Of a stretch of DNA of 37,706 nucleotides, positions 4,899 through 32,118 are shown piece after piece (the stretch's first letter is position 1; every line of letters starts with the position of its first letter). This DNA is from Candidatus Dormiibacterota bacterium (GTDB taxonomy: Bacteria; Chloroflexota; Dormibacteria; Aeolococcales; Bog-877): positions 1 to 37,706 of the forward strand of contig JABEUU010000088.1 in NCBI GenBank assembly GCA_013044295.1. Reading direction: 5' to 3'. A program made the translations under genes and the position numbers. A model generated the notes under the pieces. The model was not told where the DNA came from, made no database searches, and saw nothing but the letters and a program-made list of their open reading frames with translations.

Positions 4899-5474
4899 GT
4901 GAGCTTCCTCCTGGGTCAACTGAACTTCTTCAAATTAACACGGCCCAGGTTGGCAAAGAGTGACTCCGGGCGGGCGCGAGATTGGCCAGGTGGCACCGGC
5001 CCCACCCGGCCGCTGAAGCCGCTCGAGAAGTTGCTCCGCCGCTGACGCGCCGGGGGGCCCCGGGACCAAACTCTGACTCGAGCCTGCGTCGGGGCGACCT
5101 TTTGCCCGCCGCCTCGGCCGGGCCGGCCGGATCGGTCCCCACCGCGACCCCCGGACCGATGGCCGCATCTGTTGCCCCGGCTGCTGCTACGATCAGCTGG
5201 TGCTGGCGGCGGGTGACTCCCAACCCATACCGGTGGTCAGTCTGGGGCGTTTGGCCCGTCGGCTTGCACATCTGTCGGCCACCTTCGGCGGGGCGAATCT
5301 CCGCAGTCCGTGCCACCCCTATTTATTTAAATGGTATGAACAGCCGCTTTTGGCGGTCGATCGCCGAGCCGTCTGGGCCAGCCCGGCTCCAGGCTGGCGG
5401 CGCCTAGCGCGTGGTCGGATGATCGCGTCCCGAGCCCGGGGGCCGGAAGCCGTAGATTGGGGGGCCGCTGCCGG
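4899..5474. other. 576-bp intergenic region between divergent genes
   Basis: No supported gene. An AT-rich patch at about 4921-4937 sits upstream of the minus-strand F420 gene and may carry its promoter. A second patch at 5320-5340 contains the palindrome ATTTAAAT (5325-5332), the most AT-rich stretch of the neighbourhood. A TAGATT box at 5453-5458 lies 16 nt before the ATG at 5475. Open frames here are shadows typical of GC-rich DNA. Confidence 0.5.
5453..5458 (+). promoter_or_regulatory. Possible -10 box for the gene at 5475
   Basis: TAGATT lies 16 nt upstream of the ATG, which would give a leader of about 10 nt. No convincing -35 or Shine-Dalgarno is visible; only a G-run follows the box. 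Confidence 0.3.
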
Positions 5475-12035: not shown

Positions 12036-13664
12036 ATGGCAGAGCAAGTCAGCGTGGGTGCCGGAGCCGCTGCCGAAGCGGGGCACCGCTACAAGAAGGA
12101 CCTGGGCCTCTGGGCCGTGGTGTTCCTGGCGACCGGGGCCATCCTGGGACCGGCTGTCGGATTCACCCCGGTCTCGGTGCTGGGTCTGGCCGGGCCGGCT
12201 GGCATCCTCTCTTGGGTGATCGCCTTCCTGATGATCATGGTCTTGGCGATGTCGTACGTAGAGCTGGGGACCATGTGGCCCCGTGCCGGAGGTGTCGCCT
12301 ACTATCCGGCCCGCGCCAGCGGGCCTCTGGTAGGTGTCCTAAACGCCTGGGGCGCGTTCATCGGATACTCGCTGGCCGTGCCGTCGATCATCGTTGCCTT
12401 CGTCGAGTACCTCAGCTACTGGTTCCCTTCGCTGTACGCGAACGGGACACTGACCTGGGCCGGCATCGGCCTCGCCTTCCTGGTGCTGCTCTCGATGCTG
12501 TTCATCAACAGCCTGCGAATCCGCTACATGGGCGAGATCAACAACGCCCTCACGATCTTCACCATTCTCGGTCTGCTCATCATCGTCCTGGCCCTGCTGA
12601 CTCACTTCCATCCCTCCAACTTCAGCAATTTCCATGGGCTGTTCCCATTCGGGGCCAGCGGTCTGCTGCTGGCGGTCTCCGCCACGGTCTACGGCTATGG
12701 TGGCTTCCGCCAACCGATCGACTACGCCGAGGAGGTGCGCGACCCGGGGAGGACGATTCCCAGGGCGGTCTTCCTGACCATGTTCATCGTGCTGATCGTC
12801 TTCGCTCTCGAGAGCTTTGCCTTCGCCGGCGCGATCAACTGGCACGGAATGAAGCTGGCCAGCGGCGGCTGGGCGACTCTGACCGGTCTGCAGTTCCCAT
12901 TCGTAACTGTCGCCAGCGGGGCCAACCTCGCCGTGATCGGCCTGCTGGCTGTCATCACCACCCTGATCGCCTCCTTCAAGGACGGCTACATCTATTCGGG
13001 CGGAGCGGCCAGGGTGGGCCAGACCATGGCGCGGTATGACAACTACCTGCCGCCCATCTTCGCCCGCCTCTCCATCCAGGGGATTCCCATGGTCTCCCTC
13101 GGACTGGTGCTGGTCGTGGTGGCGATCTACCTGGTGCTCCTGCCCGCGTTCTCCAGCCTGTTCCCGCTGGTTGCCAGCGCCCTGGTGCTCTCATACGCCC
13201 CGGGCCCGCTCGCCTGCGCCATCTTCCGCCGTCGCCACCCGGACGAGCCCAGGCCCTACACGATGCCCTTCCTCAGCGTTCTCGGGCCGCTGGCATTTGT
13301 GGTGGCCAGCCTGATGGTGTACTGGTCCGGGTGGACGGCCATCCGGATCCTCATCCCCTCGGTTGTGGTCGGGGTGGTGCTGCTCGGCTTCTACCGCCAG
13401 ACGCGGCCGATCACCCGTCGCGACCTGGTCTACGGAGCCTGGATGCCGGCCTACCTCGGAGTGATCGCGCTGATGTCGTTCCTGGGCGGCTCCGCCTTCG
13501 GGGGACGCAACGTGCTGCCTTTCCCGTCCGACTCCTTCATCTTCGCGTTGGTCGCGCTGGCCTTCTACTACATCGGCTACTGGAGCGGCGTCCATTGGAC
13601 TGGCACCTCGATCACCGAGGAGGCCCATCAGGGCACGCTGGCGCCGGCGGGTGAATCTGCCTGA
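12036..13664 (+). CDS. APC-superfamily amino acid/amine permease
   Basis: A 542-residue secondary transporter of the amino acid-polyamine-organocation superfamily, with about twelve to thirteen spans. The first span carries the discontinuous substrate helix (FLATGAILGPAVGFTPVSVLG), followed by MSYVELGTMWPRAGG, the typical APC span 2/3 segment (usually Y/F-x-E-L-x-x-x-x-P-x-x-G-G). YGYGGFRQPIDYAEEVRDPGRTIPRA is the conserved span 6 to loop motif, and PGPLACAIFRRRHPDEPRPY precedes the last spans. The ATG has GGGGAGAGGA directly upstream. The much longer open frame to 11448 is rejected because residues before this ATG are not membrane-like. It leads the catabolic region and is a candidate importer for its substrate. 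The exact substrate is not readable. Confidence 0.93.
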   Translation: MAEQVSVGAGAAAEAGHRYKKDLGLWAVVFLATGAILGPAVGFTPVSVLGLAGPAGILSWVIAFLMIMVLAMSYVELGTMWPRAGGVAYYPARASGPLVGVLNAWGAFIGYSLAVPSIIVAFVEYLSYWFPSLYANGTLTWAGIGLAFLVLLSMLFINSLRIRYMGEINNALTIFTILGLLIIVLALLTHFHPSNFSNFHGLFPFGASGLLLAVSATVYGYGGFRQPIDYAEEVRDPGRTIPRAVFLTMFIVLIVFALESFAFAGAINWHGMKLASGGWATLTGLQFPFVTVASGANLAVIGLLAVITTLIASFKDGYIYSGGAARVGQTMARYDNYLPPIFARLSIQGIPMVSLGLVLVVVAIYLVLLPAFSSLFPLVASALVLSYAPGPLACAIFRRRHPDEPRPYTMPFLSVLGPLAFVVASLMVYWSGWTAIRILIPSVVVGVVLLGFYRQTRPITRRDLVYGAWMPAYLGVIALMSFLGGSAFGGRNVLPFPSDSFIFALVALAFYYIGYWSGVHWTGTSITEEAHQGTLAPAGESA

Positions 13665-13669
13665 TCTTG

Positions 13670-13713
13670 GTGGCGGGCGGCGGTGGGGGCGAGAGTCCCA
13701 AGCCGCCCGCCAC
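13670..13713 (+). terminator. Strong 12-bp GC hairpin between permease and deacetylase
   Basis: GTGGCGGGCGGC (13670-13681) and its perfect complement GCCGCCCGCCAC (13702-13713) enclose a 20-nt loop, 6 nt after the permease stop. No T-tract follows. It may terminate, attenuate or protect the 3' end of the permease mRNA and so separate its level from the deacetylase. Confidence 0.55.
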
Positions 13714-13772
13714 GCTGGCCATCCGGCCCGGATCCGACGGCCGCGCGTGCGTTGCTCTTGGCTGGGGCTGGA

Positions 13773-14654
13773 ATGAGCAAGGACATCAAATGCGCCATCG
13801 GGGTCCACGTGGACGCGGTGGCCGGGTGGCTGGGGTCCTATGGGGGCGAGAACTCTCCCTCTGACGTGCAGCGAGGCATGTTCGCCGGCGAGGTCGGGAT
13901 TCCGCGGCTGCTGACCCTCTTCGCGAGGGCCGGGCTGACCACCACCTGGTTCATCCCGGGCCACTCTCTGGAGACCTTTCCGGAGCAGGTTGCTCAGGTG
14001 GTCGCCGCAGGTCACGAGATCGGCGCCCACGGCTACTCGCACGAGAACCCCATCGCCATGACGGGGGCTCAGGAGGAGGCGGTCCTGGCTCGCAGCGTGG
14101 AGCTGATCACGCGCGCCAGTGGCCGCCCTCCCCGGGGCTACGTGGCGCCCTGGTGGGAGCTCTCGGACCGGACCGCTGACCTGCTCCGTGAGCACGGATT
14201 CCGCTACGACAACAGCCAGGGGTACAACGACTTCTCTCCCTTCTACGCGCGGGTCGGCGACAGTTGGACCAAGGTGGACTTCGCCAAAGATGCCGACCAG
14301 TGGATGCGGCCGCTGCTGCGCGGGCGGCAGGTCGATCTGGTCGAGATCGCCGCCAACTGGTACCTCGACGATCTGCCCCCGATGATGTTCATCAAGCAGT
14401 CGCCCAACAGCCATGGTTTCGTCAACCCCCGGGACATCGAGCAGCTGTGGCGCGATCAGTTCGACTGGGTCTACCGGGAGCTGGATTACGCGGTCTTCCC
14501 GCTCACCATTCACCCGGATGTGAGCGGTCGGCCCCAGGTGCTGCTGATGCTGGAGCGTCTGATCGCCTACATCAGCGGACATGACGGCGTGAGCTGGGTG
14601 ACCATGGAGGAGGTGGCCGCCGACTTTCGACGGCGCCAGCCATTCGCCCCCTGA
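13773..14654 (+). CDS. Polysaccharide deacetylase-family (CE4) amide hydrolase, HpPgdA/PuuE-like
   Basis: A 293-residue carbohydrate esterase 4 (NodB-fold) protein. Motif 1 is [11 protein letters not shown], with the Asp pair position partly changed. The second metal site is [14 protein letters not shown], which carries the H-(S/T)-x-x-H type histidines. [14 protein letters not shown] and GFRYDNSQ correspond to the later CE4 motifs, and [13 protein letters not shown] holds the C-terminal histidine. Order and length match the HpPgdA-like and PuuE (cofactor-independent allantoinase)-like subgroups. There is no signal peptide or span, so it acts in the cytoplasm, making a small N-acyl amide or ureide a likelier substrate than the cell wall. 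ATG 13773 ([10 protein letters not shown]) fits the family start; the ribosome site is weak. It follows the permease. Confidence 0.85.
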
Positions 14655-14960
14655 GTGCGGGAGCGGAGGAACGGACGCCAGCGCGGGGCGCACCAGTCTC
14701 CCCCGCGCTCGCTCGGCGAAGGTCAGAGCAGAGAGAGTCCCGCCGCCCGGGTGGTCTGGGATTGGTCCCGACATGAAAGGGGGCCGCAGCTCAGCTCAAG
14801 GCGCTCACCCCGCCCATTGGCAAGCCCCTGCAGGAGCCCTGCCGCAGACAATTGGTGACGGGCAGAGCCCGCTTGGCCGGCCTGACGGCAGCTTCCGGCG
14901 GTCGAAGATGCCCTGGGCGAATGCGCTGGACCGGCACCTATGTATAAGGAGTGCTCCCCC
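14655..14960. other. 306-bp intergenic region
   Basis: No gene seen. It holds a small perfect hairpin, CGGGC-AGA-GCCCG (14859-14871), possibly a terminator for the deacetylase. An AT-rich TATGTATAAGGAG stretch before the next start contains the Shine-Dalgarno of the peroxidase-related gene. Confidence 0.4.
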
Positions 14961-15542
14961 ATGACAGCTCGGATCAGCCGTTTCCCGGTGCCCGTGCTCG
15001 AGGACCTACCCGAGGACCTTCGCGGGCGGATCTCTGAGATCGCGGCCAAGACCGGCTTTGTGCCCAACGTGTTCCTCGCCCTCGCTCATCGGCCGAGTGA
15101 GCTGCGGGCGTTCATCGCTTACCACGACGCCGTGATGGAGCGGGAAGACGGTCTGAGCAAGGCCGAGAGGGAGATGATCGTGGTGGTGACCAGCGCCGCC
15201 CGGAGCTGCCCTTACTGCGTGGTCGCCCATGGGGCGATCCTCAGGCTGAGACTGCACGACCCGATCGCTGCCGACCTGGTGGCCATCAACTACCGCTTGG
15301 CCGGGCTGAGCCCGAGGCATCGGGCGATGCTGGACTATGCGGTCAAGCTCTCCTCGACTCCCGAACGGGTGGGCGATGGGGACCTGGCCCAGCTGCGCGA
15401 AAGCGGCTTCAGCGATGACGAGGTCTGGGACATCTCGGCCGTGGTGGCGCTCTTTGCGCTCGCCAACCGGATGGCCCTGGCTTTGGACATGCGCCCCAAC
15501 CCGGAGTTCCACCTGATGGGGAGGGCGCCCCGGAAGGATTGA
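14961..15542 (+). CDS. Peroxidase-related (AhpD/CMD-fold) enzyme
   Basis: A 193-residue protein of the peroxidase-related branch of the AhpD/carboxymuconolactone decarboxylase fold. The redox motif is SCPYCVVAHG (C-x2-C then His), following KAEREMIVVVTSAA. GFSDDEVWDISAVVALFALANRMA matches the C-terminal helices. The N-terminal FVPNVFLALAHRPSELRAF is the usual opening. ATG 14961 is chosen because AAGGAG lies 9 nt upstream (14946-14951); the ATG at 14940 precedes that site. It likely acts as a thiol-based peroxidase or disulfide reductase. It is convergent with the amidohydrolase gene, with only 18 nt between stops. A related protein is at 16703-17101, on the other side of the amidohydrolase. 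Confidence 0.88.
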   Translation: MTARISRFPVPVLEDLPEDLRGRISEIAAKTGFVPNVFLALAHRPSELRAFIAYHDAVMEREDGLSKAEREMIVVVTSAARSCPYCVVAHGAILRLRLHDPIAADLVAINYRLAGLSPRHRAMLDYAVKLSSTPERVGDGDLAQLRESGFSDDEVWDISAVVALFALANRMALALDMRPNPEFHLMGRAPRKD

Positions 15543-15562
15543 TCGGGCATTGGAGCCCGGTC
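15541..15562. terminator. Bidirectional hairpin between convergent genes
   Basis: GATCGGGC (15541-15548), a 6-nt loop and GCCCGGTC (15555-15562) form an 8-bp stem with one T-G wobble. It fills the 18-bp gap between the convergent stops and touches both stop codons. No T-tract on either strand. Confidence 0.45.
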
Positions 15563-16658
15563 AGAACCGGTAGAGGCTCCTGGTGTTTCCGTCCATGATC
15601 GCCAGCTCCACCTCGTCCAGCCAGCTCGAGCGGGCGCCCTGCACGGCCCAGCGGTCGCGAACTGTTCGCCAGCCCTCCCGGATCAGGTGGGCTCCGAACC
15701 AGAATGTCTCCGGGTGGCCGTGGCCATCGGTGCCGCAGAGGACCCGGGACGTGGGGGCCAGCTCCAACACCCGCTCCATCCGGTCCGCCACGGTGGCGAC
15801 CGAGTAGAGGTTGAACATCGATAGCTCGGCATGCACATTGGGCTTGGCCAGGGTCAGGTAGGCGAGCTCTTCGTGCCAGGGGTAGGAGCCGTGGATCAAA
15901 AGGACTGTGGCCGCCATCCCCTCCGCGGTTCGGAGCAACTCCTCCAGCAGCAGGGGGTTGGCCTCCGCCAGCCGGATCTCGGAGTCGCCGAAGCCCGTGT
16001 GGATCTGGAACGGCAGGTGAAGCTCGGCCGCCCATCCCAGGGCTGAGCGCAGGGCGAGGTCGCGGAGAGCCTTCCCCCGGCGCCGGACCGGCAGGGCGGC
16101 CGACTCGCGCAGCGATGCCTCCGCCCTTGCGAGGGTGGCGCCGGGATCGACGGCGAGCCCGGTGCGGTAGGCGATTATCGTCTTGAAGCCGAAGTATCCT
16201 GAGCCGGGCGCATCCTGCATCGCCTGCTCGACACCGGCCAGCACCTCGGCCGCCCCGGCACCGTCCGCGATCATCCGGTCGATCAGCGGTTCCAGCCGTA
16301 GGATCGGACGGACCGGGCACCCGACCATCTGAGCGAAGCTGGCGGCCTGGGCGGTGGTGGCGTCCAGATTCCAGCCTGGGTCCAGCACCATCCCGGTGAT
16401 GCCGCAGTCCGCGAACAGGCCGCGCACGTAGCCGCTCCAGTCGGAGCTGGCCCGGCCCCTGGCCTCGGGCACCTCTTCAACGGAACACCCGAGGTAAGCC
16501 GCCAGGCGCACCCCCAGCAGCTCATGGCTGAGGCGCGAGGGCCCGCTCTGCTGGCGCACGGCGCGGGAGGCATCGTCCGTCGCCAGCTCGACGTTGATGG
16601 CGGAGAGGTCAAGAGCCCCTCCGGAGTCGGCTATGGGGTGGCCGTGGCTATCGATCAA
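15561..16658 (-). CDS. FluG-type amidohydrolase
   Basis: A 365-residue TIM-barrel amidohydrolase (amidohydrolase-2 type). Metal-site residues appear in order: DSHGHP near the N-terminus (H-x-H), FKTIIAYRTGL (Lys), PFQIHTGFGD (His), VLLIHGSYPWHEE (His) and CGTDGHGHPETFWFG (Asp). The last three segments are those of the N-terminal half of fungal FluG and plant NodGS proteins, where this domain is fused to a glutamine-synthetase domain. Here the GS-like partner is a separate gene at 20828. The start is TTG 16658, with GAGG 8 nt upstream and the HxH motif right after it, as in the family. It is the last gene of the five-gene minus-strand operon. It probably hydrolyses an amide or gamma-glutamyl bond, or decarboxylates; the substrate is unknown. 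Confidence 0.88.
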   Translation of the reverse strand: MIDSHGHPIADSGGALDLSAINVELATDDASRAVRQQSGPSRLSHELLGVRLAAYLGCSVEEVPEARGRASSDWSGYVRGLFADCGITGMVLDPGWNLDATTAQAASFAQMVGCPVRPILRLEPLIDRMIADGAGAAEVLAGVEQAMQDAPGSGYFGFKTIIAYRTGLAVDPGATLARAEASLRESAALPVRRRGKALRDLALRSALGWAAELHLPFQIHTGFGDSEIRLAEANPLLLEELLRTAEGMAATVLLIHGSYPWHEELAYLTLAKPNVHAELSMFNLYSVATVADRMERVLELAPTSRVLCGTDGHGHPETFWFGAHLIREGWRTVRDRWAVQGARSSWLDEVELAIMDGNTRSLYRF

Positions 16659-16702
16659 ATCTCGATCCTCGTGGACTTCGGGTGATGGTGTGCAGACGAC
16701 GG

Positions 16703-17101
16703 CTAGGCGCGGGGGACTGGCGGCTCGTACTCGACCTTGAGGCCGGACGCGGTGGCGTTGGATCCGTTGAAGAAGTCGACTACCGCCATCAGCTCCACCA
16801 GCTCAGCATCACCGAAGCCCAGTGAGCGCAGCGCGTCGGTGTGGCTGGACAGGCAGTAGGAGCAATTGTTGGTGGCCGACACCGCGACCGCGATGATCTC
16901 CTTGGTGCGGCGGTCGAGCGAACCCTCGGCCATCACCGACTTCAGCTTGTTCCAGGTCGAGGCCAGGTACTCGGGCCGGTGGGCCAGTGCCTTCCAGTAG
17001 TTCGGAACCTTCGACAGGTTCCGGCTCGCCATGATCTCCTCGTACACCTCCTTGACCAGTCCTTCGGCCTCAGACTCCTCGATCAGTCTCACCAGTGCCA
17101 C
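16703..17101 (-). CDS. AhpD-like (carboxymuconolactone decarboxylase-fold) protein
   Basis: A 132-residue alkylhydroperoxidase/CMD-fold protein. The signature is RTKEIIAVAVSATNNCSYCLSSHTDALRSLG (C-x2-C-x3-H), followed by a FGDAELVELMAVVDFFNG helix pair. It is shorter than, and different from, the peroxidase-related protein at 14961. I choose GTG 17101, whose first base lies 1 nt after the aminotransferase stop and which has GGGAGGG upstream. The annotated-length alternative from 17128 would overlap the aminotransferase and lacks a site. It is fourth in the minus-strand operon and translationally coupled to the gene before it. The role is probably disulfide/peroxide chemistry, but the fold is also used by decarboxylases. 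Confidence 0.86.
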   Translation of the reverse strand: MALVRLIEESEAEGLVKEVYEEIMASRNLSKVPNYWKALAHRPEYLASTWNKLKSVMAEGSLDRRTKEIIAVAVSATNNCSYCLSSHTDALRSLGFGDAELVELMAVVDFFNGSNATASGLKVEYEPPVPRA

Positions 17102-17102
17102 C

Positions 17103-18062
17103 TCAGTCCCTCCCAGGCAAAATGCCACCCACGGCCGCCGGCACGGGGGTGCGCCAGGCGGCCATGTCCTCGACCTCGCCGCGAGCCACCTGCAGGTAGG
17201 CGCGCTGGAGCTCTTGGGTCAGAGGCCCGATCTCACCGTTGCCAATGATGCGCCCGTCGACTTGGGTGATCGGAGCCAGCTGCACCCCCGTTCCCGAAAG
17301 GAAGGCCTCATCCGCTGAGAGCAGCTCGCTGCGGTCGACCCGGCGCACCTCGAGGGGCCATCCCCGCTGGCGGACCAGCTCGATCACGCAATCCCTGGTG
17401 ATGCCGACCAGCACATCGTCGGTGGCCTGCGGGGTGATCACGGTTCCGCCCGCGACCAGGAATAGATTGGAGGAGGAGGCCTCGGCCACGTGGCCGTCAC
17501 CGGTGAGCATGATCGCCTCGTCGAATCCTCTCGCCCGCGCCTCGTCGGAGGCCAGAGCGGCGTTGATGTAGGCCCCCGTGGGCTTGGCGCGGGCGGGGAT
17601 GGCGTTGTCGTCGATCCGCCGCCAGGCCGAGATCATCACGTTGAGGCCCTTGCGGATGTCCAGGTAATCTCCGAAGGGCTGGGTGAAGACGCACAGGTCG
17701 GTGGCGATGCCGGAGAGGGTCACCTTGATGGTGCGCCCAGACTTGTAGAGGATGGGGCGGATGTAGACATCCTCCCGGTATCCGTTTCGGGCCAGCAGCT
17801 CCAGGATGATCGATTCAATTCTGCCCTGGGTGAGGGTGGGGTCGGGCTCCAGGTGGAGGATGTGGGCGGAGCGAAGCAGCCGCTCCGCGTGCTCACGCAG
17901 GCGCAGCACGTAGAGCTGCTCCTTGACCGGGTTCCAATAGGCGCGGATCCCCTCGAAGCAGCCGGTACCGTAGTTGAAGGCGTGGGTGGAGATGGGCACG
18001 CGGGCCTCGTCCTTGTCGACGAAGCCGCTCTCGAAGTAGACGATGTCTCCCGGGCTGCTCAT
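17103..18062 (-). CDS. Class IV (branched-chain amino acid-type) aminotransferase
   Basis: A 319-residue PLP enzyme of fold type IV, closest in layout to branched-chain aminotransferases (IlvE). Features are FNYGTGCFEGIRAYW near residue 30, the YIRPILYKSGRTIKV strand, and the PLP lysine at about residue 160 (ARAKPTGAYINA). HVAEASSSNLFLVAGG carries the conserved Glu, VGITRDCVIEL the phosphate-binding turn and SGTGVQLAPITQVDGR the C-terminal loop. It would transfer the amino group of a hydrophobic amino acid to 2-oxoglutarate. The start ATG overlaps the SDR stop by 4 nt (ATGA), and its own stop is 1 nt before the next GTG. Within a cluster with an Lrp regulator and an APC permease, a catabolic role on an imported amino acid is likely. 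It need not be the biosynthetic IlvE. Confidence 0.92.
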   Translation of the reverse strand: MSSPGDIVYFESGFVDKDEARVPISTHAFNYGTGCFEGIRAYWNPVKEQLYVLRLREHAERLLRSAHILHLEPDPTLTQGRIESIILELLARNGYREDVYIRPILYKSGRTIKVTLSGIATDLCVFTQPFGDYLDIRKGLNVMISAWRRIDDNAIPARAKPTGAYINAALASDEARARGFDEAIMLTGDGHVAEASSSNLFLVAGGTVITPQATDDVLVGITRDCVIELVRQRGWPLEVRRVDRSELLSADEAFLSGTGVQLAPITQVDGRIIGNGEIGPLTQELQRAYLQVARGEVEDMAAWRTPVPAAVGGILPGRD

Positions 18063-18838
18063 ATATACCTCCCCATGCCGCCGGACACGTCGATGGACGC
18101 GCCCGTGATATAGCTCGCGTGCCGGCTGGCCAAAAAGGCGACCAGTCCGGCGACCTCGTCTGGTTCGCCGAATCGTCCCAACGGGACCTCCGGCGCCGCG
18201 GTCCTATCCAGGAACTCGGACTCGGTGAGCTCGGGAGCGCGGCGGCGATGGATGGCGGCCCACTGGGGTGTCCGCACCAAACCGATGTTGACCGAATTGA
18301 CCAGGATCCTCTCGGGACCAAGCTCCATCGCGAGCGCCTTGTTGAAGGCCAGACAGGCGGCCCTGTCCACGGTGGTCGCGAAGAAGTCCGGGTCGGGCTG
18401 GCGGCCGTAGATGGCGTTGACGTTGATGATCACGCCGCCGCCAGCGGCTCGCAGATGAGGCAGAGCGGCGCGGCTGCACCGGATCTGAGAGAACAGCTTG
18501 ACATCGAGGTCGGCCTGGAAGTCGGCATCGGTGAGGGTCTCAAACGTGCCTGGGTGGGCCCGCCCAGCATTGTTCACCAGGATGTCGAGGCCGCCGAACT
18601 CCTCCGCCGACCTGGCGATGAAGCGTTCTACATCGCCCGGAATGGTCACGTCAGCCACCTCGGCCCGCACCCGTCCCAGCTCTCCCAGCCGCTCAGCCGC
18701 GATCGTCAGCTCGTCTCCGTGCCGCGAGCAGATGGCGACGACCGCGCCCTCCTGGAGCAGGAGTTCCGCGATCGCATAGCCCAAGCCCTTGGACCCGCCG
18801 GTAACGATGGCGCGGCGCCCTCCCAGGCCCAGGTCCAC
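18059..18838 (-). CDS. Short-chain dehydrogenase/reductase-fold protein lacking the catalytic tetrad
   Basis: A 259-residue Rossmann-fold SDR. The cofactor motif TGGSKGLG (residues 13-20) and the LVNNAG motif (residues 87-92) are intact, as is the C-terminal DVSGGMG segment, so NAD(P) binding looks preserved. The catalytic residues do not fit. The usual Asn-Ser-Tyr-Lys positions align with Lys114, Ala142, Thr155 and Arg159 (NVNAIYG and ATTVDRAACLAF replace ISSxxG and YxxxKAA). The start is GTG 18838, with GGAG overlapping the cupin stop. The stop overlaps the aminotransferase start in ATGA, so it is translationally coupled. It may use another base, work on an unusual substrate, or act as a cofactor-binding partner. 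It is second in the operon. Confidence 0.9.
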   Translation of the reverse strand: MDLGLGGRRAIVTGGSKGLGYAIAELLLQEGAVVAICSRHGDELTIAAERLGELGRVRAEVADVTIPGDVERFIARSAEEFGGLDILVNNAGRAHPGTFETLTDADFQADLDVKLFSQIRCSRAALPHLRAAGGGVIINVNAIYGRQPDPDFFATTVDRAACLAFNKALAMELGPERILVNSVNIGLVRTPQWAAIHRRRAPELTESEFLDRTAAPEVPLGRFGEPDEVAGLVAFLASRHASYITGASIDVSGGMGRYI

Positions 18839-18844
18839 CTTGGC

Positions 18845-19267
18845 CTACTCCGACGCTCGTCGACGGGCGTCGCTCGCCAGGTCGAGGAGGGCCTGCCTGG
18901 GAGGGTTGAAGACGTCGAACTCGAGACAGGCGCCGTCTTTGGTGCGGGCCCCATGGGAGACGTTGGCGGGTACCACCGCGACCATGCCCGGAGTCAGCTG
19001 CCGGACCTCCCCGTCGATCTCGAACTCCAGCTCACCTTCGACCACAAGGGTGATCTGCTCCTCGTCGTGGACATGCACCGGCGCCTCGGTGTGGGGCTCG
19101 AAGTGGACCGCCATCAGCATGGTGCGCTCTCCGAGCAGGTATCGAAATTCCAGCCCGGGTACGAACTGAACTGGGTCCTCTCCCCTTTGCAGATCCACGA
19201 AGCGGCCGGGAGCGGTGGGGGGTCGACCTGAGCCGACCTGGCTGAAGTACTGGTCCGCAAGGCTCAT
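18845..19267 (-). CDS. Cupin-domain protein
   Basis: A 140-residue single-domain cupin. Motif 1 is HVHDEEQITLVVEGELEF (H-x-H plus a later Glu/Gln and Gly). Motif 2 is GMVAVVPANVSHG, with the third histidine, so a mononuclear metal site (two His from motif 1, one from motif 2) is complete. It could be a small dioxygenase, isomerase or ligand-binding protein. ATG 19267 is chosen because GAGGGAG lies 9 nt upstream; the GTG at 19291 precedes that site. It is the first gene of the minus-strand operon, with the SDR starting 6 nt after its stop, and is expressed from the divergent promoter shared with the Lrp gene. Confidence 0.85.
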   Translation of the reverse strand: MSLADQYFSQVGSGRPPTAPGRFVDLQRGEDPVQFVPGLEFRYLLGERTMLMAVHFEPHTEAPVHVHDEEQITLVVEGELEFEIDGEVRQLTPGMVAVVPANVSHGARTKDGACLEFDVFNPPRQALLDLASDARRRASE

Positions 19268-19354
19268 CCTGTTTCGCTCCCTCTTTTCCACAGATCGGTT
19301 AGATCCAGCGCAGCGGCTCGCGCCCGCATTTGGCCGGTCGTCATGGATAGCCTG

Positions 19355-19363
19355 ACTATAGCA
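19355..19363 (-). promoter_or_regulatory. Extended -10 promoter of the cupin operon
   Basis: On the minus strand TGCTATAGT is an extended -10 element: TG, one base, then TATAGT, five of six matches. It points into the cupin gene with a leader of about 80 nt and a Shine-Dalgarno. The -35 region is weak, as expected for an extended -10 promoter. Confidence 0.5.
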
Positions 19364-19374
19364 TTAGCAGCTAT
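19358..19374. promoter_or_regulatory. Candidate Lrp-type operator, 17-bp inverted repeat
   Basis: ATAGC-ATTAGCA-GCTAT is a perfect 5-bp dyad with a 7-nt spacer. It overlaps the minus-strand -10 and the start of the plus-strand -10 (TATGAT at 19372). A regulator bound here would control both operons. The AT-rich dyad and the adjacent Lrp/AsnC gene suggest autoregulation. Confidence 0.45.
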
Positions 19375-19377
19375 GAT
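19372..19377 (+). promoter_or_regulatory. -10 box of the Lrp/GATase/GS operon
   Basis: TATGAT (five of six matches) faces right. It is followed by 6 nt and then the GTG at 19384, giving a leaderless start for a short upstream frame. No strong -35 is visible. Confidence 0.45.
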
Positions 19378-19383
19378 GTGATG

Positions 19384-19413
19384 GTGAGTAGCCGTCCATA
19401 CCATTGCAAGTGA
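19384..19413 (+). CDS. Possible leaderless 9-residue upstream peptide
   Basis: GTG 19384 starts exactly 6 nt after the TATGAT box and encodes nine residues (MSSRPYHCK). Its TGA stop overlaps the ATG of the Lrp gene by one base (TGATG), so translation of the short frame could feed ribosomes into the regulator. An in-frame ATG at 19381 is an alternative start. The Lrp ATG has no clear Shine-Dalgarno of its own, which supports coupling. A frame this short can arise by chance; it rests on spacing and overlap only. Confidence 0.3.
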   Translation: MSSRPYHCK

Positions 19414-20030
19414 TGGCCAAGCCAAGTGCGCGCCTTACTAATGACAACCGTGGGCTCGCGTCCCCGGGGCCGGAGCAGCCGCCAGCTCACGCAGTTGACG
19501 CCACCGACCTTGCGATCCTGGTCCACCTCCTGCGCGACGCCCGGGTCTCGGTGCGAAGGATCGCGGCGGCGGTGGGGATGTCTGCACCCGCGGTGACCGA
19601 GCGCATTGCGCGGCTCGAGCGCAGCGCGATCATCCGCGGCTATCGGGCCGATGTCGACTGGGCGAAGCTCGGCTATGCCGTGATCGCCTATGTGTTGGTC
19701 ACCGGGGTGCAGGGCTGGGAGCAGACCGAGACGGTGGAGGCGCTGCGGAGCCTCTTGGAGGTGGAGGATGTGACGGTCGTCACCGGCGCCTCGGACCTGC
19801 TGGTCCGGGTCCGGGTCCGCGACCAGCAGCATCTGCGCGAGTGCCTCTTCGATCGCCTCTGGAAAGTTCCTGGCGTGCACCGGACCGAGACCGTGCTCTG
19901 CCTGACCGACCCCGGTCCGAGGACCTTTGACCTGCATCTGGCGGAGGCCATGCTGGCAGAGTCGAGAGGGGATCGAGCCGCGCACACAGTTCCGGAGCCA
20001 GGCCGTCGGCCCTCCAAGAGGTCCAAGTGA
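19413..20030 (+). CDS. Lrp/AsnC-family transcriptional regulator
   Basis: A 205-residue regulator. After a disordered N-terminus of about 28 residues comes the winged helix-turn-helix (DATDLAILVHLLRDARVSVRRI, then VGMSAPAVTERIARLE as the recognition region). The beta-rich RAM (ligand-binding, oligomerisation) domain follows from about GYAVIAYVLV to VLCLTDPG. ATG 19413 is preferred; TTG 19404 and GTG 19410 are in-frame alternatives. It faces away from the cupin operon across a 145-bp region with a dyad, and its stop overlaps the amidotransferase start (TGATG). It probably senses an amino acid and controls both divergent operons. The C-terminal 25 residues are Pro/Arg-rich and beyond the usual length. 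Confidence 0.92.
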   Translation: MAKPSARLTNDNRGLASPGPEQPPAHAVDATDLAILVHLLRDARVSVRRIAAAVGMSAPAVTERIARLERSAIIRGYRADVDWAKLGYAVIAYVLVTGVQGWEQTETVEALRSLLEVEDVTVVTGASDLLVRVRVRDQQHLRECLFDRLWKVPGVHRTETVLCLTDPGPRTFDLHLAEAMLAESRGDRAAHTVPEPGRRPSKRSK

Positions 20031-20719
20031 TGTGTGAGATTCTGCTGGCGGTGTGGCCCGAGCCGAGCCCGATCGAGCAGGTGCTGGAGTGGGGCACGGC
20101 GCTGGAGCGCTACGGCCTCGGTGGCTTCGGATGGGGCGTTGCCTGGCGTGGTCCAAAGGGCGTGGCCAGCTACCGCCACCCTGGGCAGCTGGCCGGTGAC
20201 GACGCGGGCCGGGCCCGGCTGGCGTCGATCCGCTCCACCCACTTCCTGGTCCACCTGCGTCGGCCCTCGCAACTGACCACCATCGCCCTTGCCGACACTC
20301 AGCCGTTCCGAGCTGAGGACGGAAGCTTCGCCTTCGCGCACAACGGCCGACTTGACGGCGCCGAGGGCCTGCGTGGACGCTTCGGGACCAAGCTGCAAGG
20401 ACGGGCCGACAGCGAGGTCGGATTCCGCCTCTTCGAGGAGCTGTTGGGGGAGGGCCAGAGCGCGAGGGCTGCTCTGCCCGCGATTCACACCCGACTCGGT
20501 GGCACCGCGAATCTGGCCTTCCTACCGGCGGAGGGAGCGCCTCTGGTCTACGCCGGGGCGCCTGCCAACCAGCTCTGGAGCTTCGACTTGGCCGGCGCCG
20601 AGGTGGTCAGCACCGGGCTCCACTCCACGGACGAGGCGGTATTCGAGTTCTGCTTCCCCGGGGCGTCGCACCGGGCAAGGATCGGGGACGGCGAGACGGC
20701 GGCGGTGGCGGAGAGTTAG
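20030..20719 (+). CDS. Standalone class II glutamine amidotransferase (EgtC/YafJ-like)
   Basis: A 229-residue Ntn-type amidotransferase domain. The nucleophile is Cys2 (MCEILLAV), exposed after Met removal. Other hallmarks are STHFLVHLRRPS (the Arg that binds the glutamine carboxylate), DTQPF, FAFAHNGRLDG (Asn-Gly of the oxyanion hole) and RADSEVGFRLFEEL (Asp). There is no synthase domain, as in YafJ and EgtC; EgtC removes glutamate from a gamma-glutamyl intermediate. ATG 20030 overlaps the Lrp stop by one base. The GTG at 20027 would add a residue before the Cys and is rejected. The neighbouring GS-like ligase suggests that it hydrolyses the gamma-glutamyl bond the ligase makes, or supplies ammonia. 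Confidence 0.9.
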   Translation: MCEILLAVWPEPSPIEQVLEWGTALERYGLGGFGWGVAWRGPKGVASYRHPGQLAGDDAGRARLASIRSTHFLVHLRRPSQLTTIALADTQPFRAEDGSFAFAHNGRLDGAEGLRGRFGTKLQGRADSEVGFRLFEELLGEGQSARAALPAIHTRLGGTANLAFLPAEGAPLVYAGAPANQLWSFDLAGAEVVSTGLHSTDEAVFEFCFPGASHRARIGDGETAAVAES

Positions 20720-20827
20720 TCGGCGTCCGAGGAGCTGGGGCCAGACGGGGTCGGCTGCGGCCAACCGCGCCAGCCGCCCCGATCAGCACCGAGGCGAGCG
20801 CGCAACCGAGACCAGAAGGAGAGGCAG

Positions 20828-22303
20828 ATGGCGAAGATTCTCCCCCGCGACCTGGCCATGGGCAAGGTCGGCTTCGTAGCGGAGCACCGGCTCTACGACG
20901 AGGCCAAGGGCGCAGCCGCCGAGGCCGCTGCGGCGGCCGTGGCGGACCAGGGCATCCGCACCGTGCGGATCATGTGGCCGGACCAGCACGGCGCGCTGCG
21001 CGGCAAGTTCGTGTCCGCGCGCGACTTCGCGCTCTCGCTCCGCAATGGCATGGACTTCTCCGGGGCGCTGCTCAGCATGGACTCCGCCAATCACGTCTTC
21101 CCCCCGCTGTTCGTGGAGGGGGGCGGCTTCGGCATCCCGGAGCTGACCGGGTTCCCAGATGTGGTGCTGGTGCCTGACCCCACGACCTTCCGGGTCCTGC
21201 CGTGGGCGGACGCCACGGCCTGGGTGATGTGCGACATGTACTTCGGCAACGGCAAGGAGGTGACGCTCTCCACCCGCTCTGTGATGCGCCGCCAGCTCCA
21301 GGCGGCAGCCGAGATGGGGTTCGACTACGTCGCCGGCCTCGAGGTGGAGTTCTACATCACCCGGCGCGAATGGGACCGGATCGCTCCCGACCAGACCGGG
21401 TGGCCGCCGGTGGCGCCCCCGGTGAGCATGGTCGCCCAGGGCTACCAGTACCTGTCCGAGACCAGGCTGGCACAGTTGGGCGACATTCTCAACCCCCTGC
21501 GGGACAACCTGGAGGAGATCGGACTTCCGCTGCGCAGCATCGAGGACGAGTGGGGCCCGGGCCAGACCGAGATCACCCTCGACCCCATGGTCGGGCTGGG
21601 CGCGGCCGACGCCATGATCATCCTGCGCTCGGCGATCAAGCAGATCTGTCATGAGCGTGGCTACCACGCCACCTTCATGTGCCGTCCCCTGCTGCCCAAT
21701 GTCTCCTCCAGCGGATGGCATCTCCACGAGTCGCTGCGGGACGCCAAGGCCGGTCGCAACGCATTCCAGGGCGGCAAGGGGGAGGTGCTCTCGGAGGCGG
21801 GGCGGCAATTCGCCGCTGGCATCCTCCAGCACGCGGTCCCGATGACCGTGTTCTCGACCCCGACGATCAACGGGTACAAGCGCTTCCGGCCCTACTCGTT
21901 CGCCCCCGACCGGGTCAACTGGGCGATGGAGAACCGCGGCGCCATGCTCCGGGTCCAGGGTCAGCCGGGGGACCCGGGATCACACCTCGAGAACCGGTTG
22001 GGAGAGCCGGCCGCAAATCCCTACCTCTACATGGCCGCCAACATAGCGGCCGGCCTGGACGGAATCCGCCAGAAGCTGGTGCCGCCGCCCCCGGTGACGG
22101 CGGACCCCTACCAGGAGGCGGCTCAGCTGTTGCCAACTTCACTCTGGGAGGCGGTCGACGCCCTCGACCAGGACCAGTTCTTCCGCCAAGCGCTCGGGAG
22201 AGAGATCGTCGACTTCATTGTCATGATGAAGCGAGCCGAGGTGGCGCGCTTCCTGAGCACCGTCACCGACTGGGAGCAGAATGAATACTTCGAGTTCTTC
22301 TGA
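20828..22303 (+). CDS. Glutamine synthetase-family gamma-glutamyl ligase
   Basis: A 491-residue GS-fold ligase. The beta-grasp part opens with VRIMWPDQHGALRGKFV, typical of GS-like proteins acting on amines rather than ammonia (GlnA3/GlnA4, PuuA, FluG types). Active-site segments are complete: GLEVEFY (metal Glu pair), EDEWGPGQTEI, SSGWHLHESL (metal His), NGYKRFRPY and NRGAMLRV (substrate and ATP Arg). The NPYLYMAANIAAGLDGI helix follows. No adenylylation-type Tyr loop was recognised at the C-terminus (DWEQNEYFEFF). The ATG has AAGGAGAGG upstream. It would ligate glutamate to an amine or amino compound using ATP. It is third in the Lrp operon, 108 nt after the amidotransferase, and is the counterpart of the GS half of FluG. 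Confidence 0.93.
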   Translation: MAKILPRDLAMGKVGFVAEHRLYDEAKGAAAEAAAAAVADQGIRTVRIMWPDQHGALRGKFVSARDFALSLRNGMDFSGALLSMDSANHVFPPLFVEGGGFGIPELTGFPDVVLVPDPTTFRVLPWADATAWVMCDMYFGNGKEVTLSTRSVMRRQLQAAAEMGFDYVAGLEVEFYITRREWDRIAPDQTGWPPVAPPVSMVAQGYQYLSETRLAQLGDILNPLRDNLEEIGLPLRSIEDEWGPGQTEITLDPMVGLGAADAMIILRSAIKQICHERGYHATFMCRPLLPNVSSSGWHLHESLRDAKAGRNAFQGGKGEVLSEAGRQFAAGILQHAVPMTVFSTPTINGYKRFRPYSFAPDRVNWAMENRGAMLRVQGQPGDPGSHLENRLGEPAANPYLYMAANIAAGLDGIRQKLVPPPPVTADPYQEAAQLLPTSLWEAVDALDQDQFFRQALGREIVDFIVMMKRAEVARFLSTVTDWEQNEYFEFF

Positions 22304-22333
22304 GTCCGGTGTCGGCTAGAGGGGGAATTAGCG

Positions 22334-22663
22334 ATGTCTCAACCGGTCCAGCATCTGGTGTTATTCCGTCTGGCCGAGCCCCCGGGGCCCGAGGTGGAAG
22401 AGGAGATGCGGCGGCAGATCTCGACCTGGGCCGGGGTGATTCCCGGACTGCGCCGGCTGCGCTTCGGTGCCGACACCGGAGGCCGGGCCGATGGCTACCA
22501 GTTCTGCCTGCTCACCGAGTTCGAGGACGCCGAGGCGCTGGCGGCCTACCTTCCCCATCCGCTCCATGCCGCCTTTCTGCGATGGGTGCAGGATCGACCG
22601 TTCGAGGTGCTCCGGTTCGACTACCCTCTGGATGAAAGGACCAGCCTGCTGGAGAGCGCCTGA
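22334..22663 (+). CDS. Dabb (stress-responsive alpha/beta barrel) domain protein
   Basis: A 109-residue Dabb-family protein (ferredoxin-like dimeric fold). The opening QHLVLFRLAEP is the typical His-containing strand (H-x-V-x-F-x). PGLRRLRFGADTGGRADGYQFCLLTEFEDAEALAAYLPHP is the standard central part, ending in the FLRWV helix. Such proteins include small monooxygenases, cyclases and stress proteins. GAGGGGG lies about 13 nt before the ATG, and the gene starts 30 nt after the GS-like stop, so it probably belongs to the same operon. A role in converting or holding an intermediate is inference only. Confidence 0.85.
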   Translation: MSQPVQHLVLFRLAEPPGPEVEEEMRRQISTWAGVIPGLRRLRFGADTGGRADGYQFCLLTEFEDAEALAAYLPHPLHAAFLRWVQDRPFEVLRFDYPLDERTSLLESA

Positions 22664-29115: not shown

Positions 29116-31953
29116 TTATCGCGCTGGCAGCTTCTCCGGGCGCGGTGGTGGCGCCAGATTCGCCGCCCGTTGCCGCCGGGACGGCCGGGGTGCCGCTTCC
29201 TTGGCCTTCGTCGCCGCTGTCAGCGGGGTCCAGCGCTGGTCGGCTCCCCACTCGCGCTCGAGGTCCAGGGGGTCCAGGGGCCGGGTGAAGAAGAACCCCT
29301 GAGCCAGTCCCTCGGGGGAGACCCTTCGGAACTCGGCTGCCTGGACGGCGGTCTCGATGCCTTCGGCGACAACGCCCAGGTGAAGCGCCCGACCCAGTTC
29401 GACCACGCTCTGGACCACGGCGGCTCCAGAGCGCGTTCCGGTCATGGCCTGAAGGAAGGACCTGTCGATCTTGAGGATGTCGACCGGCAGAGTCTGGAGC
29501 TGTCCCAGAGAAGAGTTCCCGATGCCGAAGTCATCGATGGCGATCCGCACTCCGAGTTCGCGCAGTTCGCGCAGCTGGCCGGCCGCGGTCGGCAAATCGC
29601 GGATCACCGAGGTCTCCGTGACCTCCAGGATGAGCTGCCGGGCGGGCAAGTTGAAGTCCTGTAAGGCTGCCTGCACCTCCCCCAGCAGGCCCCCCTGGGA
29701 CAGCTGACGGCCGGAGATGTTGACGGCGATGTCGAGTTGGGCCAGCCCCCCATGGGTGGTCGCCCACTCGTTCATCTGGCGGCAGGCCTCGCGAAGAACC
29801 CAGCGCCCAATTGGCTGGATGAGATTGGTCGCTTCGGCCAGCGGGATGAACAGGTCGGGGGCGATCCGACCGCGCTCGGGGTCGTTCCAGCGAACGAGCG
29901 CCTCCAGGCCGGTCATCTGGCCGTCGGACACCCGGATGATGGGCTGGTACTGAAGCAGGAACTCGTTCTCGATCAGGGCCCGCCGGAGGCCCTCCTCCAC
30001 CCGAACCTTTTCCACCAGTTGGTCGTGGAAGCCCGGGTGGAACACCCGGTAGCTGCCCTTGCACTCGGACTTGGCGGTGTAGAGCGCGATGTCCGCGAAG
30101 CGGACCAGCTCGCTGGGGCTCGTCGCCTCCCTGGCGGTCGCGATGCCAATGCTCAGCCCGACCGTGCGGAAACCCGCGCCCCCAAGCGCGACCGGTTTTG
30201 CCAGGACCTTGGCGATCCGCTGCGCCAGCGCGGCCCCGTGGTCACTGGACGCACTCCCATCCATTAGGATGGCGAACTCGTCGCCACCGAAGCGGGCGAA
30301 GGTATCCCCGGGCCGAAGACAGGTGACGATCCGGCGACTCACCTCCGCCAGCAGCGCGTCTCCCGCGCCGTGACCCAGGCTGTCGTTGACGTCCTTGAAG
30401 TTGTCGAGGTCGAGGACCAGGATCGTGACCGCTGAGTGGGCCCCGCGGCGGCTGGCGAGCGCGTGCTCCAGGCGGTCGCCGAAGAGCGCCCGATTGGCGA
30501 GCCCGGTCAGCTGGTCGTGGAGGGCCTGGTGGCGCAGCTGGTCTTCGAGGGCCGTCTGCGCGGTTACGTCCCTCGCGGTCAGGACCAGGGCCCGCGCGGT
30601 GGGGTCGTCCAGCAGGTTGGTGAGGACAACCTGGAATGTTAGTGGGCTGCCCTCTCGGTCCACTAGCTGGAGGGTCAGGGCCTGCGATGTGCCCGGGCGG
30701 CTCCTGACCTCGGCCAGGGCGGCGTCCAGGGTTGGCTGATCATCGGGGATGACCAGGTTCCTCAGGTTGGGCGGGACCACCGTCCCGGCCTTGGTCCCGG
30801 TCATAGCCTCCACCGAGGGGCTCATGTAAACCAGCTCGTTCTCGGCTCCCACCGCGATCACCAGGTCTGAGGCCGCCTGCACCAGGGACCGGAATCGGGC
30901 CTCGCCCTGGGTGCGGTCCTGGACCGACTCCATGAGCGCCATGGTCATGCTGGCGACCACGCCCAATTCCTCCACCGCCAGGCGGGTCGCCTGTGCCGGC
31001 TCCCCGCTCCCTCGGATCGCCAGCACTTCGCCACCACGCTGGGGATTGCCGATTCGGAAAACGGCGACCTCGCCCACCGGCTTGGAGCTGGCCATGCCGC
31101 GCGCGACCTCGTCGAACAGAGAGTCTCCAGGAAGTAGCCGGCCGTAGTCTCCGGCCGTCTCCTGAAGCTGGTGGAGTGTCTCCGATAGGACCAGGACGGT
31201 GGGGACCGCCGCCCCGGGGCCGGCTGGCAGGCGCGCCTGGCGAGCTGGCTCGCTGCACAGGACCGCCAGCTCCAGGTCGCGGTCCATAGCGACGATCCTC
31301 TGTGCCGCCCGTTCCGCGATCAGTCGGGCCTGGGCGAGTTCCGAAGAGTTGAGTAGGTCGATGGACGCTTGCCGCAGGATCTCGGCGCGGGTGAGGTCTT
31401 TGTCGTGGTCCTCGAGCACGTGCTTGATGACCTGCATCAGGATCCCCATCATGGGTAGCCCGGGGATGATGGTGGTGATGGTGGTCGGCGCCAGCAGTGG
31501 CTGGGTGGGAACGTGGGCGACCCACAGCGAGATGAGATTGGCGCCGCCGAACTGAGCCACCATCAGGCCGGTCTCGGCCCGGCCCCCGTACAGGGAGCGG
31601 AAGAGAATGGCGGAGTAGGTGACGCCCAAGGCGTACTCGGGGTTGCCGGCGCTCACTCCGAGCGCTATCAGGGCAGCGGTCGTGATCAACTCCCCCGGCA
31701 GTGGGAACCTCCCCCGTCGGTAGCCAGTGACCCACCAGCCAGCGAGCCAGGCCGCGCCCGCCAGGCCGCAGAGGTGGAGCCAGGCGGCCGTCGGTGCCAT
31801 CAGCACCAGGGGCACGGAGGTTGCCAGGGCTACCAGACTGACCGCCAGGAACAGCCAGCGCAGGCGCTGCAACGTGTTGGCTGGGAAGCCCAGTCCGGCT
31901 GCGACCAGCCGGCGCGGGCTCGCCAGGGTCACCTCATACGGTCGCGGTGGCAT
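29116..31953 (-). CDS. Membrane PAS-GGDEF-EAL cyclic-di-GMP signalling protein
   Basis: A 945-residue sensor. The first 200 residues hold about six hydrophobic spans (LRWLFLAVSLVALATSVPLV through IIPGLPMMGILMQVI). A GAF-like stretch follows, then a PAS domain (FRSLVQAASDLVIAVGAENELVYMSPS). The GGDEF domain is intact (RFGGDEFAIL), with an RPGD inhibition site five residues upstream (RxxD-x5-GGDEF). The EAL domain keeps GLEALVRW, the VNISGRQ Asn, EVTET, DDFGIGNSSLG, DILKIDRSF and VVAEGIET, so cyclase and phosphodiesterase activities both look possible. ATG 31953 has GGGGGAA upstream and is preferred over the frame's first codon at 32061. It would adjust cyclic-di-GMP in response to a membrane or small-molecule signal. 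Confidence 0.94.
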   Translation of the reverse strand: MPPRPYEVTLASPRRLVAAGLGFPANTLQRLRWLFLAVSLVALATSVPLVLMAPTAAWLHLCGLAGAAWLAGWWVTGYRRGRFPLPGELITTAALIALGVSAGNPEYALGVTYSAILFRSLYGGRAETGLMVAQFGGANLISLWVAHVPTQPLLAPTTITTIIPGLPMMGILMQVIKHVLEDHDKDLTRAEILRQASIDLLNSSELAQARLIAERAAQRIVAMDRDLELAVLCSEPARQARLPAGPGAAVPTVLVLSETLHQLQETAGDYGRLLPGDSLFDEVARGMASSKPVGEVAVFRIGNPQRGGEVLAIRGSGEPAQATRLAVEELGVVASMTMALMESVQDRTQGEARFRSLVQAASDLVIAVGAENELVYMSPSVEAMTGTKAGTVVPPNLRNLVIPDDQPTLDAALAEVRSRPGTSQALTLQLVDREGSPLTFQVVLTNLLDDPTARALVLTARDVTAQTALEDQLRHQALHDQLTGLANRALFGDRLEHALASRRGAHSAVTILVLDLDNFKDVNDSLGHGAGDALLAEVSRRIVTCLRPGDTFARFGGDEFAILMDGSASSDHGAALAQRIAKVLAKPVALGGAGFRTVGLSIGIATAREATSPSELVRFADIALYTAKSECKGSYRVFHPGFHDQLVEKVRVEEGLRRALIENEFLLQYQPIIRVSDGQMTGLEALVRWNDPERGRIAPDLFIPLAEATNLIQPIGRWVLREACRQMNEWATTHGGLAQLDIAVNISGRQLSQGGLLGEVQAALQDFNLPARQLILEVTETSVIRDLPTAAGQLRELRELGVRIAIDDFGIGNSSLGQLQTLPVDILKIDRSFLQAMTGTRSGAAVVQSVVELGRALHLGVVAEGIETAVQAAEFRRVSPEGLAQGFFFTRPLDPLDLEREWGADQRWTPLTAATKAKEAAPRPSRRQRAANLAPPPRPEKLPAR

Positions 31954-32118
31954 CCGATCGTTCCCCCTGCTGCTTGGATGGTGCCCACGTTGGGTCACCC
32001 TCTCATGGGCGCCGGCTCGGAGCGCAGACGGCGGTGCTCCGATAGGATGACGGTTGGGCAACGCCGCGGCCCCCCAGGTCAGCTCCCAGCCAGTCCGCTG
32101 GGGTGGCCCACAGGAGGG

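Follow-up and report, generated by a model that had tools for sequence, protein, structure and literature searches.

A conserved divergent locus of Dormibacteria combines a FluG-type amidohydrolase, a probable gamma-glutamyl-amine ligase and a class II amidotransferase

A divergent amine-related locus in Dormibacteria

The 37,706-nucleotide window analysed here, contig JABEUU010000088.1 of a Candidatus Dormiibacterota bacterium (contig 29; the genome assembly measures 2.3 Mb and is 91% complete), carries a locus of roughly a dozen genes at ~12036–22663 that brings together a FluG-type amidohydrolase (AHY), a glutamine synthetase (GS)-like ligase and a stand-alone class II amidotransferase (GAT). 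We directly established the gene content and conserved linkage of the locus, the clade and active-site residues of the ligase, and the catalytic residues of AHY and GAT. We see about an even chance that this is a catabolic locus under the control of an Lrp-family regulator, in which an amine or amine-containing compound would be taken up, glutamylated, modified and finally deglutamylated by a class II enzyme. More tentatively, it may encode an undescribed amine-catabolic route: a TdnQ-type ligase would have taken over from the ligase that normally accompanies a FluG-type amidohydrolase, a short-chain dehydrogenase/reductase (SDR) would act on a gamma-glutamyl amide without an oxygenase or aldehyde dehydrogenase, and the glutamyl group would be removed by a class II N-terminal nucleophile (Ntn) enzyme.

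The genes form two operons on opposite strands, meeting at ~19268–19412, in the divergent layout described in an initial annotation of this DNA. The leftward operon encodes a cupin, the SDR, a class IV aminotransferase, an AhpD-like CXXC protein (CMD2) and AHY; the rightward operon encodes the Lrp/AsnC regulator, GAT, the ligase and a dimeric alpha/beta barrel (Dabb) protein. Past AHY, the plus strand encodes an APC-family permease, a hydrolase with the deacetylase fold and an AhpD protein related to peroxidases. The initial annotation placed its open reading frames at or very near the positions below, and Pfam scores match the families it expected. The genes it named are present, but its inventory, spanning 15561–22663, was incomplete, omitting the Dabb protein at 22334–22663, the amino acid permease, the deacetylase/imidase-like hydrolase and the second AhpD-like protein at the left. 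The features of the locus are as follows.

12036..13664, plus strand: APC-family amino acid/amine permease (Pfam AA_permease_2 2e-47; open reading frame listed from 11448, likely start 12036)
13773..14654, plus strand: polysaccharide-deacetylase-fold hydrolase of the HpPgdA (3QBU) type (472 bits to 3qbu, with almost full-length coverage)
14961..15542, plus strand: peroxidase-related AhpD/CMD protein (NCBIfam TIGR01926 214 bits, cut-off 81.8; 69–75% conserved)
15561..16658, minus strand: FluG-type amidohydrolase, AHY (Amidohydro_2 4.6e-16; best PDB match 2qpx 5e-26)
16703..17128, minus strand: AhpD-like CXXC protein, CMD2 (CMD 3.6e-18, ahpD_dom 1.6e-16)
17103..18062, minus strand: class IV aminotransferase, branched-chain type (Aminotran_4 5e-48; NF005146 321.7 bits, cut-off 279)
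18059..18838, minus strand: SDR (adh_short_C2 9e-50; 62–78% conserved, versions A and B)
18845..19267, minus strand: small cupin (Cupin_2 1.4e-14; shared by all three locus versions; open reading frame listed from 19291, likely start 19267)
19355..19377, both directions: facing -10-like boxes (ACTATA leftward at 19355–19360; TATGAT rightward at 19372–19377)
19410..20030, plus strand: Lrp/AsnC-family regulator heading the ligase operon (HTH_AsnC-type 9e-14, AsnC_trans_reg 3e-13; start more likely GTG 19410 or ATG 19413)
20030..20719, plus strand: stand-alone class II (Ntn) amidotransferase with N-terminal Met-Cys, GAT (GATase_4 5e-8)
20828..22303, plus strand: GS-like ligase of the glutamyl-organic-amine synthase type (Gln-synt_C 2e-86)
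22334..22663, plus strand: Dabb protein, directly 3′ of the ligase and closing its operon (Dabb 3e-16)

The ligase groups with arylamine glutamylating enzymes

The best PDB match of the ligase is NpaA1 (8wwu, 435 bits; next best 205), an enzyme that glutamylates 1-naphthylamine and anilines (PMC11335346). Aligned to Escherichia coli GlnA, the ligase has Ser in place of D50 and Phe in place of E327 and keeps the metal ligands E129, E131, E212, E220, H269 and E357 (E. coli GlnA numbering). Loss of such catalytic residues was proposed to be the likely reason why enzymes of this kind cannot use ammonium (PMC11335346). Because both ammonia-site residues are lost and the metal ligands retained, the protein is very probably a gamma-glutamyl-amine ligase that does not use ammonia. 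A second GS gene in the genome is a housekeeping copy with both Asp50 and Glu327, and this, together with the lost residues, rules out an ordinary ammonia-using GS, as the initial annotation had anticipated.

In a tree of 52 sequences, the ligases of the window and of locus version B (described below) group with NpaA1/TdnQ-type ligases on a branch with 100/100 support, and all 16 ligases from loci of other FluG-type amidohydrolases lie on the other side of that branch. The proposal that the ligase is the matching half of FluG is not supported by this placement, and on the strength of the tree, which was built without fungal FluG and plant NodGS sequences, we reject the ligase as FluG's own GS half. 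The window ligase is also far from E. coli PuuA, which itself forms a long branch.

Of the residues lining the amine pocket and tunnel of NpaA1, the ligase retains E232, E234, W235 and F86 and has Met in place of F75 and Tyr in place of V201; the substrate is probably bulky and hydrophobic. Position 75 is Met or Leu in Dormibacteria ligases and Lys in those of Methylobacterium and of plasmid pSA3 from Novosphingobium SA1, a sulfanilate degrader. If that lysine binds an acidic group, its absence makes a non-acidic substrate probable for the Dormibacteria enzymes. The closest plasmid homologues of the ligase (43–53% identity) mostly lie beside Rieske dioxygenases on degradation plasmids.

A FluG-type amidohydrolase with an unusual partner

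AHY contains the segments HTGFGD, IHGSYPW and TDGHGHPET, on which its original assignment to FluG was based. Its catalytic set, comprising the HxH motif (H5, H7), K159, H220, H256 and D311, is conserved across 14 aligned homologues. The AHY proteins of locus versions A, B and C form their own clade (100/100), separate from 19 others. A structure model from a three-sequence alignment reached a predicted local distance difference test (pLDDT) score of 51 and was not used.

FluG has been studied for decades as a regulator of fungal development without a known substrate. It corresponds to two enzymes that are separate in bacteria; LSEI_0440 and PA5508 are able to substitute for its halves, its ligase half was described as resembling SCO6962 and PA5508, and its pathway was called unidentified (PMC6478659). 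GS-like and amidohydrolase genes are often neighbours in bacteria (PMC6478659), and SCO6961/SCO6962 are probably co-transcribed and induced by polyamines (PMC5403932). The separate bacterial halves and the adjacency of their genes are thus already published. Our own sample shows the same pairing: of 14 further amidohydrolase loci inspected in Chloroflexota (L093–L106), 11 have a GS-like gene nearby, as do Allomeiothermus and Streptomyces plasmids.

The locus shares with FluG/NodGS, SCO6961–SCO6962 (GlnA3), LSEI_0440 and PA5508 the linkage of an Amidohydrolase-2 protein to a GS-like ligase lacking the ammonia-site acidic residues. It differs in that AHY and the ligase are encoded by separate, unfused genes ~4.2 kb apart on opposite strands, in that the ligase belongs to another subfamily, and in the additional aminotransferase, SDR, cupin, Dabb protein, AhpD-like protein, Lrp regulator and class II amidotransferase. 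The earlier argument that fusion of the two halves in other organisms places these proteins in one pathway therefore holds for the amidohydrolase only; the clade of the ligase speaks against it for this particular pair. No third GS gene is present in the assembled genome, and AHY is therefore without a FluG-type ligase partner in the assembled part.

GAT is a plausible gamma-glutamyl-amide hydrolase

Residues C2, R77, N105-G106 and D127 of GAT are invariant in six sequences; R77, N105-G106 and D127 correspond to the residues that form the glutamine site in class II amidotransferases. Foldseek searches with an AlphaFold2 model of GAT (pLDDT 88) returned the GlmS glutaminase first (template modelling (TM) score 0.76), with EgtC at 0.64–0.69. 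EgtC is a stand-alone hydrolase of a gamma-glutamyl amide in ergothioneine biosynthesis. By analogy, GAT is plausibly a gamma-glutamyl-amide hydrolase, a role that fits because GAT, like EgtC, stands alone without a synthase domain; the invariant residues, model and fold matches agree with the class II hydrolase proposed in the initial annotation. GAT has the Ntn-hydrolase fold and N-terminal Cys of EgtC but is not EgtC itself: it scores 24.7 bits against the EgtC model, far under the cut-off of 218.65, its partner is a GS-like ligase, and EgtD (PF10017) has no match in this genome.

GAT was present in 19 of 61 genomes; besides the host, the genus and family contribute 17 genomes, and 16 of them have it. 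A search of genome contigs yielded five close relatives; beyond Chloroflexota the distribution was checked on plasmids alone, where the amidotransferase had no match. Other Chloroflexota carry homologues with 37–44% identity that are unaccompanied by the ligase and lie near helicase, major facilitator superfamily (MFS) and cyanophycin genes, which rules out GAT as a locus-specific marker. In another Chloroflexota family (L126–L143; for example L139:8264-8980 and its neighbours), the distant homologues lie near genes for an ATP-dependent helicase, an MFS transporter, cyanophycinase and cyanophycin synthetase; the 1522-residue neighbour is the helicase and not a glutamate synthase.

The locus is conserved in three versions

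The surrounding DNA of relatives was annotated with the window proteins as queries. The order AHY-CMD2-aminotransferase-SDR-cupin, diverging from Lrp-GAT-ligase-Dabb (version A), recurs in most genomes of the same family, ten in all (L023, L024, L026, L027, L030–L034 and L038), so that the possibility of a neighbourhood conserved in no relative, raised with the original proposal, falls away. Most loci of the same family have CMD2 (83–90% conserved). Five relatives have the permease in the equivalent position (78–89% conserved), and it stays together with the deacetylase in L024, L026, L027, L033 and L034. The deacetylase-fold hydrolase, possibly a small-molecule amidase or imidase, is conserved in the same family and was not seen at version B loci. 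Window proteins encoded elsewhere (RecQ, MFS, epimerase, VPS10, POP, GntR, MLE) do not recur beside the locus in relatives. The background synteny has therefore decayed, and the conserved gene order of the locus is not due to chance.

Version B was found in six genomes, of which five belong to a sister family and one to a more distant lineage of Chloroflexota (L040, L088, L089, L091, L092 and L090), with the order aminotransferase-cupin-SDR-amidotransferase diverging from Lrp-ligase-Dabb-permease-AHY. Its amidotransferase is class II but of a different subfamily, and class I aminotransferases replace the class IV enzyme; a second class I aminotransferase follows the set in L040 and L091. As in version A, the Lrp gene heads the ligase operon and the Dabb gene lies downstream of the ligase. 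Version C (L087) comprises a cupin, a permease adjoining the ligase, GAT, AHY and a second amidohydrolase. Common to all three versions are the permease, ligase, amidohydrolase, cupin and a class II amidotransferase; version B also has the SDR, Dabb and Lrp genes. The swap of aminotransferase and amidotransferase within an otherwise kept set is a good indication of a single process shared by these genes.

Decayed loci occur in three draft genomes. AHY, CMD2, the SDR, GAT and the ligase are truncated in G001, where the cupin and Lrp genes were not found and the aminotransferase and Dabb genes remain; AHY and the aminotransferase are cut in G004, with no ligase seen; and GAT is truncated in G009, again with no ligase seen. 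This joint truncation lends weak support to the locus as one unit. Partly deleted versions of the locus were seen at L039, L029 and L041, in three genomes of the same family.

The facing -10-like boxes are kept in most of 12 aligned intergenic regions. They are candidate promoters, and their arrangement is compatible with coupled control by the Lrp protein.

Several loci carry additional genes. In two distant genomes (L087:6117-7262 and L090:10289-11518) the amidohydrolase gene is followed, after a short distance, by a second one that belongs to the ordinary FluG clade. In two relatives (L035:13820-14869 and L041:6661-7905) the gene after that for the AhpD-like protein or the amidohydrolase encodes a fold-II pyridoxal phosphate enzyme like threonine ammonia-lyase. 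Homoserine kinase and threonine synthase genes stand between the deacetylase and peroxidase genes at L024:2271-4590, L026:1443-3574 and in L032–L034; at L025:4964-11004 threonine synthase, aspartate kinase, homoserine kinase and aspartate-semialdehyde dehydrogenase-like open reading frames lie beyond Dabb instead.

A proposed pathway and its alternatives

In the catabolic route that we propose, the APC permease would import the substrate, and the FluG-type amidohydrolase, in version A perhaps with the deacetylase-fold hydrolase, would free or trim the amine. The ligase would then join glutamate to the amine with ATP to give a gamma-glutamyl amide. While the amine is masked, the SDR, together with the cupin, AhpD-like and Dabb proteins, could change the carbon part, after which GAT would hydrolyse the gamma-glutamyl amide via Cys2 and give back glutamate, and the aminotransferase would transfer the nitrogen. 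We infer these reactions, their order, the catabolic direction and the control by Lrp.

The glutamylate-modify-deglutamylate logic, with permease and regulator alongside, resembles the Puu putrescine and GlnA4 ethanolamine pathways. Unlike these, the locus has no Puu-type flavin adenine dinucleotide (FAD) oxidase, other amine oxidase, aldehyde dehydrogenase or class I hydrolase recognised among its annotated genes; its hydrolase is of another class, and its ligase is distant from PuuA. The NpaA1/AtdA1/TdnQ systems with amidotransferase AtdA2 share the ligase clade, most pocket residues and a neighbouring gene for a probable gamma-glutamyl hydrolase; here that hydrolase is class II (Ntn) rather than type 1, AHY is present, and neither the locus nor the rest of the genome encodes a Rieske dioxygenase. 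We found no described pathway with this full gene combination in the literature, which agrees with the original view of the locus, and nothing relevant on Dormibacterota with such a cluster.

Several points weigh against the catabolic route. The lack of a recognised aldehyde dehydrogenase or amine oxidase leaves its oxidative steps vague. ThrB and ThrC lie beside the locus in relatives, and part of it could serve ordinary amino acid metabolism. GAT occurs without the ligase in other Chloroflexota, and its function may be unrelated to the locus. The decayed loci could be assembly artefacts, and the aminotransferase and Dabb genes persist in G001 while the ligase and amidotransferase are truncated.

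We consider two alternatives unlikely. The ligase could be a gamma-glutamyl-arylamine synthase like NpaA1/TdnQ, with an oxygenase encoded elsewhere opening the ring and the cupin, AhpD-like protein, Dabb protein and amidohydrolase processing the products; the kept tunnel residues W235 and F86 and the Rieske dioxygenases beside the plasmid homologues point this way. Against it stand the F75 to Met change and the absence of a ring-hydroxylating oxygenase alpha subunit (PF00848) from this 91% complete genome, from the version B genomes G020, G022 and G023 and from all same-family genomes searched other than G006 and G009; the G006 oxygenase lies ~5 kb off behind unrelated genes. A Rieske-linked arylamine pathway was rejected on the lack of an oxygenase in the host genome and these unrelated genes in G006. 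Equally improbable is a true split FluG, in which AHY and the ligase would run the FluG or SCO6961/SCO6962 reactions on polyamine-like amines and the other genes merely reuse the products. The complete catalytic set of AHY, the many bacteria with adjacent FluG-type amidohydrolase and GS genes and the polyamine-induced Streptomyces pair favour it, but the ligase falls outside the set found beside other FluG-type amidohydrolases and AHY, too, is in its own clade in trees without FluG.

A slightly slimmer chance attaches to a biosynthetic or storage route, in which the locus makes a gamma-glutamylated metabolite that GAT proofreads, releases or trims, as EgtC does in ergothioneine biosynthesis. 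The EgtC-like fold of GAT would suit this, as would an amine produced by the aminotransferase and SDR, and in the other Chloroflexota family GAT homologues lie ~4–8 kb from cyanophycin genes; the permease and Lrp regulator seem better suited to uptake and catabolism, however, and the missing EgtD and low EgtC score also count against it. We give least credence to a coincidental adjacency of a branched-chain/threonine amino acid operon and an unrelated glutamylation operon with a common regulator region. The branched-chain type of the aminotransferase, the inserted ThrB/ThrC genes and the aspartate-family set in L025 could be read in this way, but version B retains both divergent operons with exchanged aminotransferases, and the SDR and cupin are linked to the ligase in both versions.

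A FluG-type amidohydrolase set among defined genes for transport, transfer and redox steps gives a means of identifying the substrate of such amidohydrolases. The locus versions also place two class II amidotransferase subfamilies beside gamma-glutamyl ligases, whereas the described pathways compared here use type 1 or formylglutamate-type hydrolases. The gain is modest, amine glutamylation being a known principle; the route would be a candidate nitrogen-scavenging trait for an uncultured soil lineage.

Other features of the genome and window

The genome holds two class IV aminotransferases, the second copy at G000:C100. Downstream of the locus and apparently unrelated to it, a large PAS-GGDEF-EAL protein is encoded on the minus strand at 29116–32061. 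A protein of the F420H2-dependent quinone reductase family is encoded at 4479–4919.

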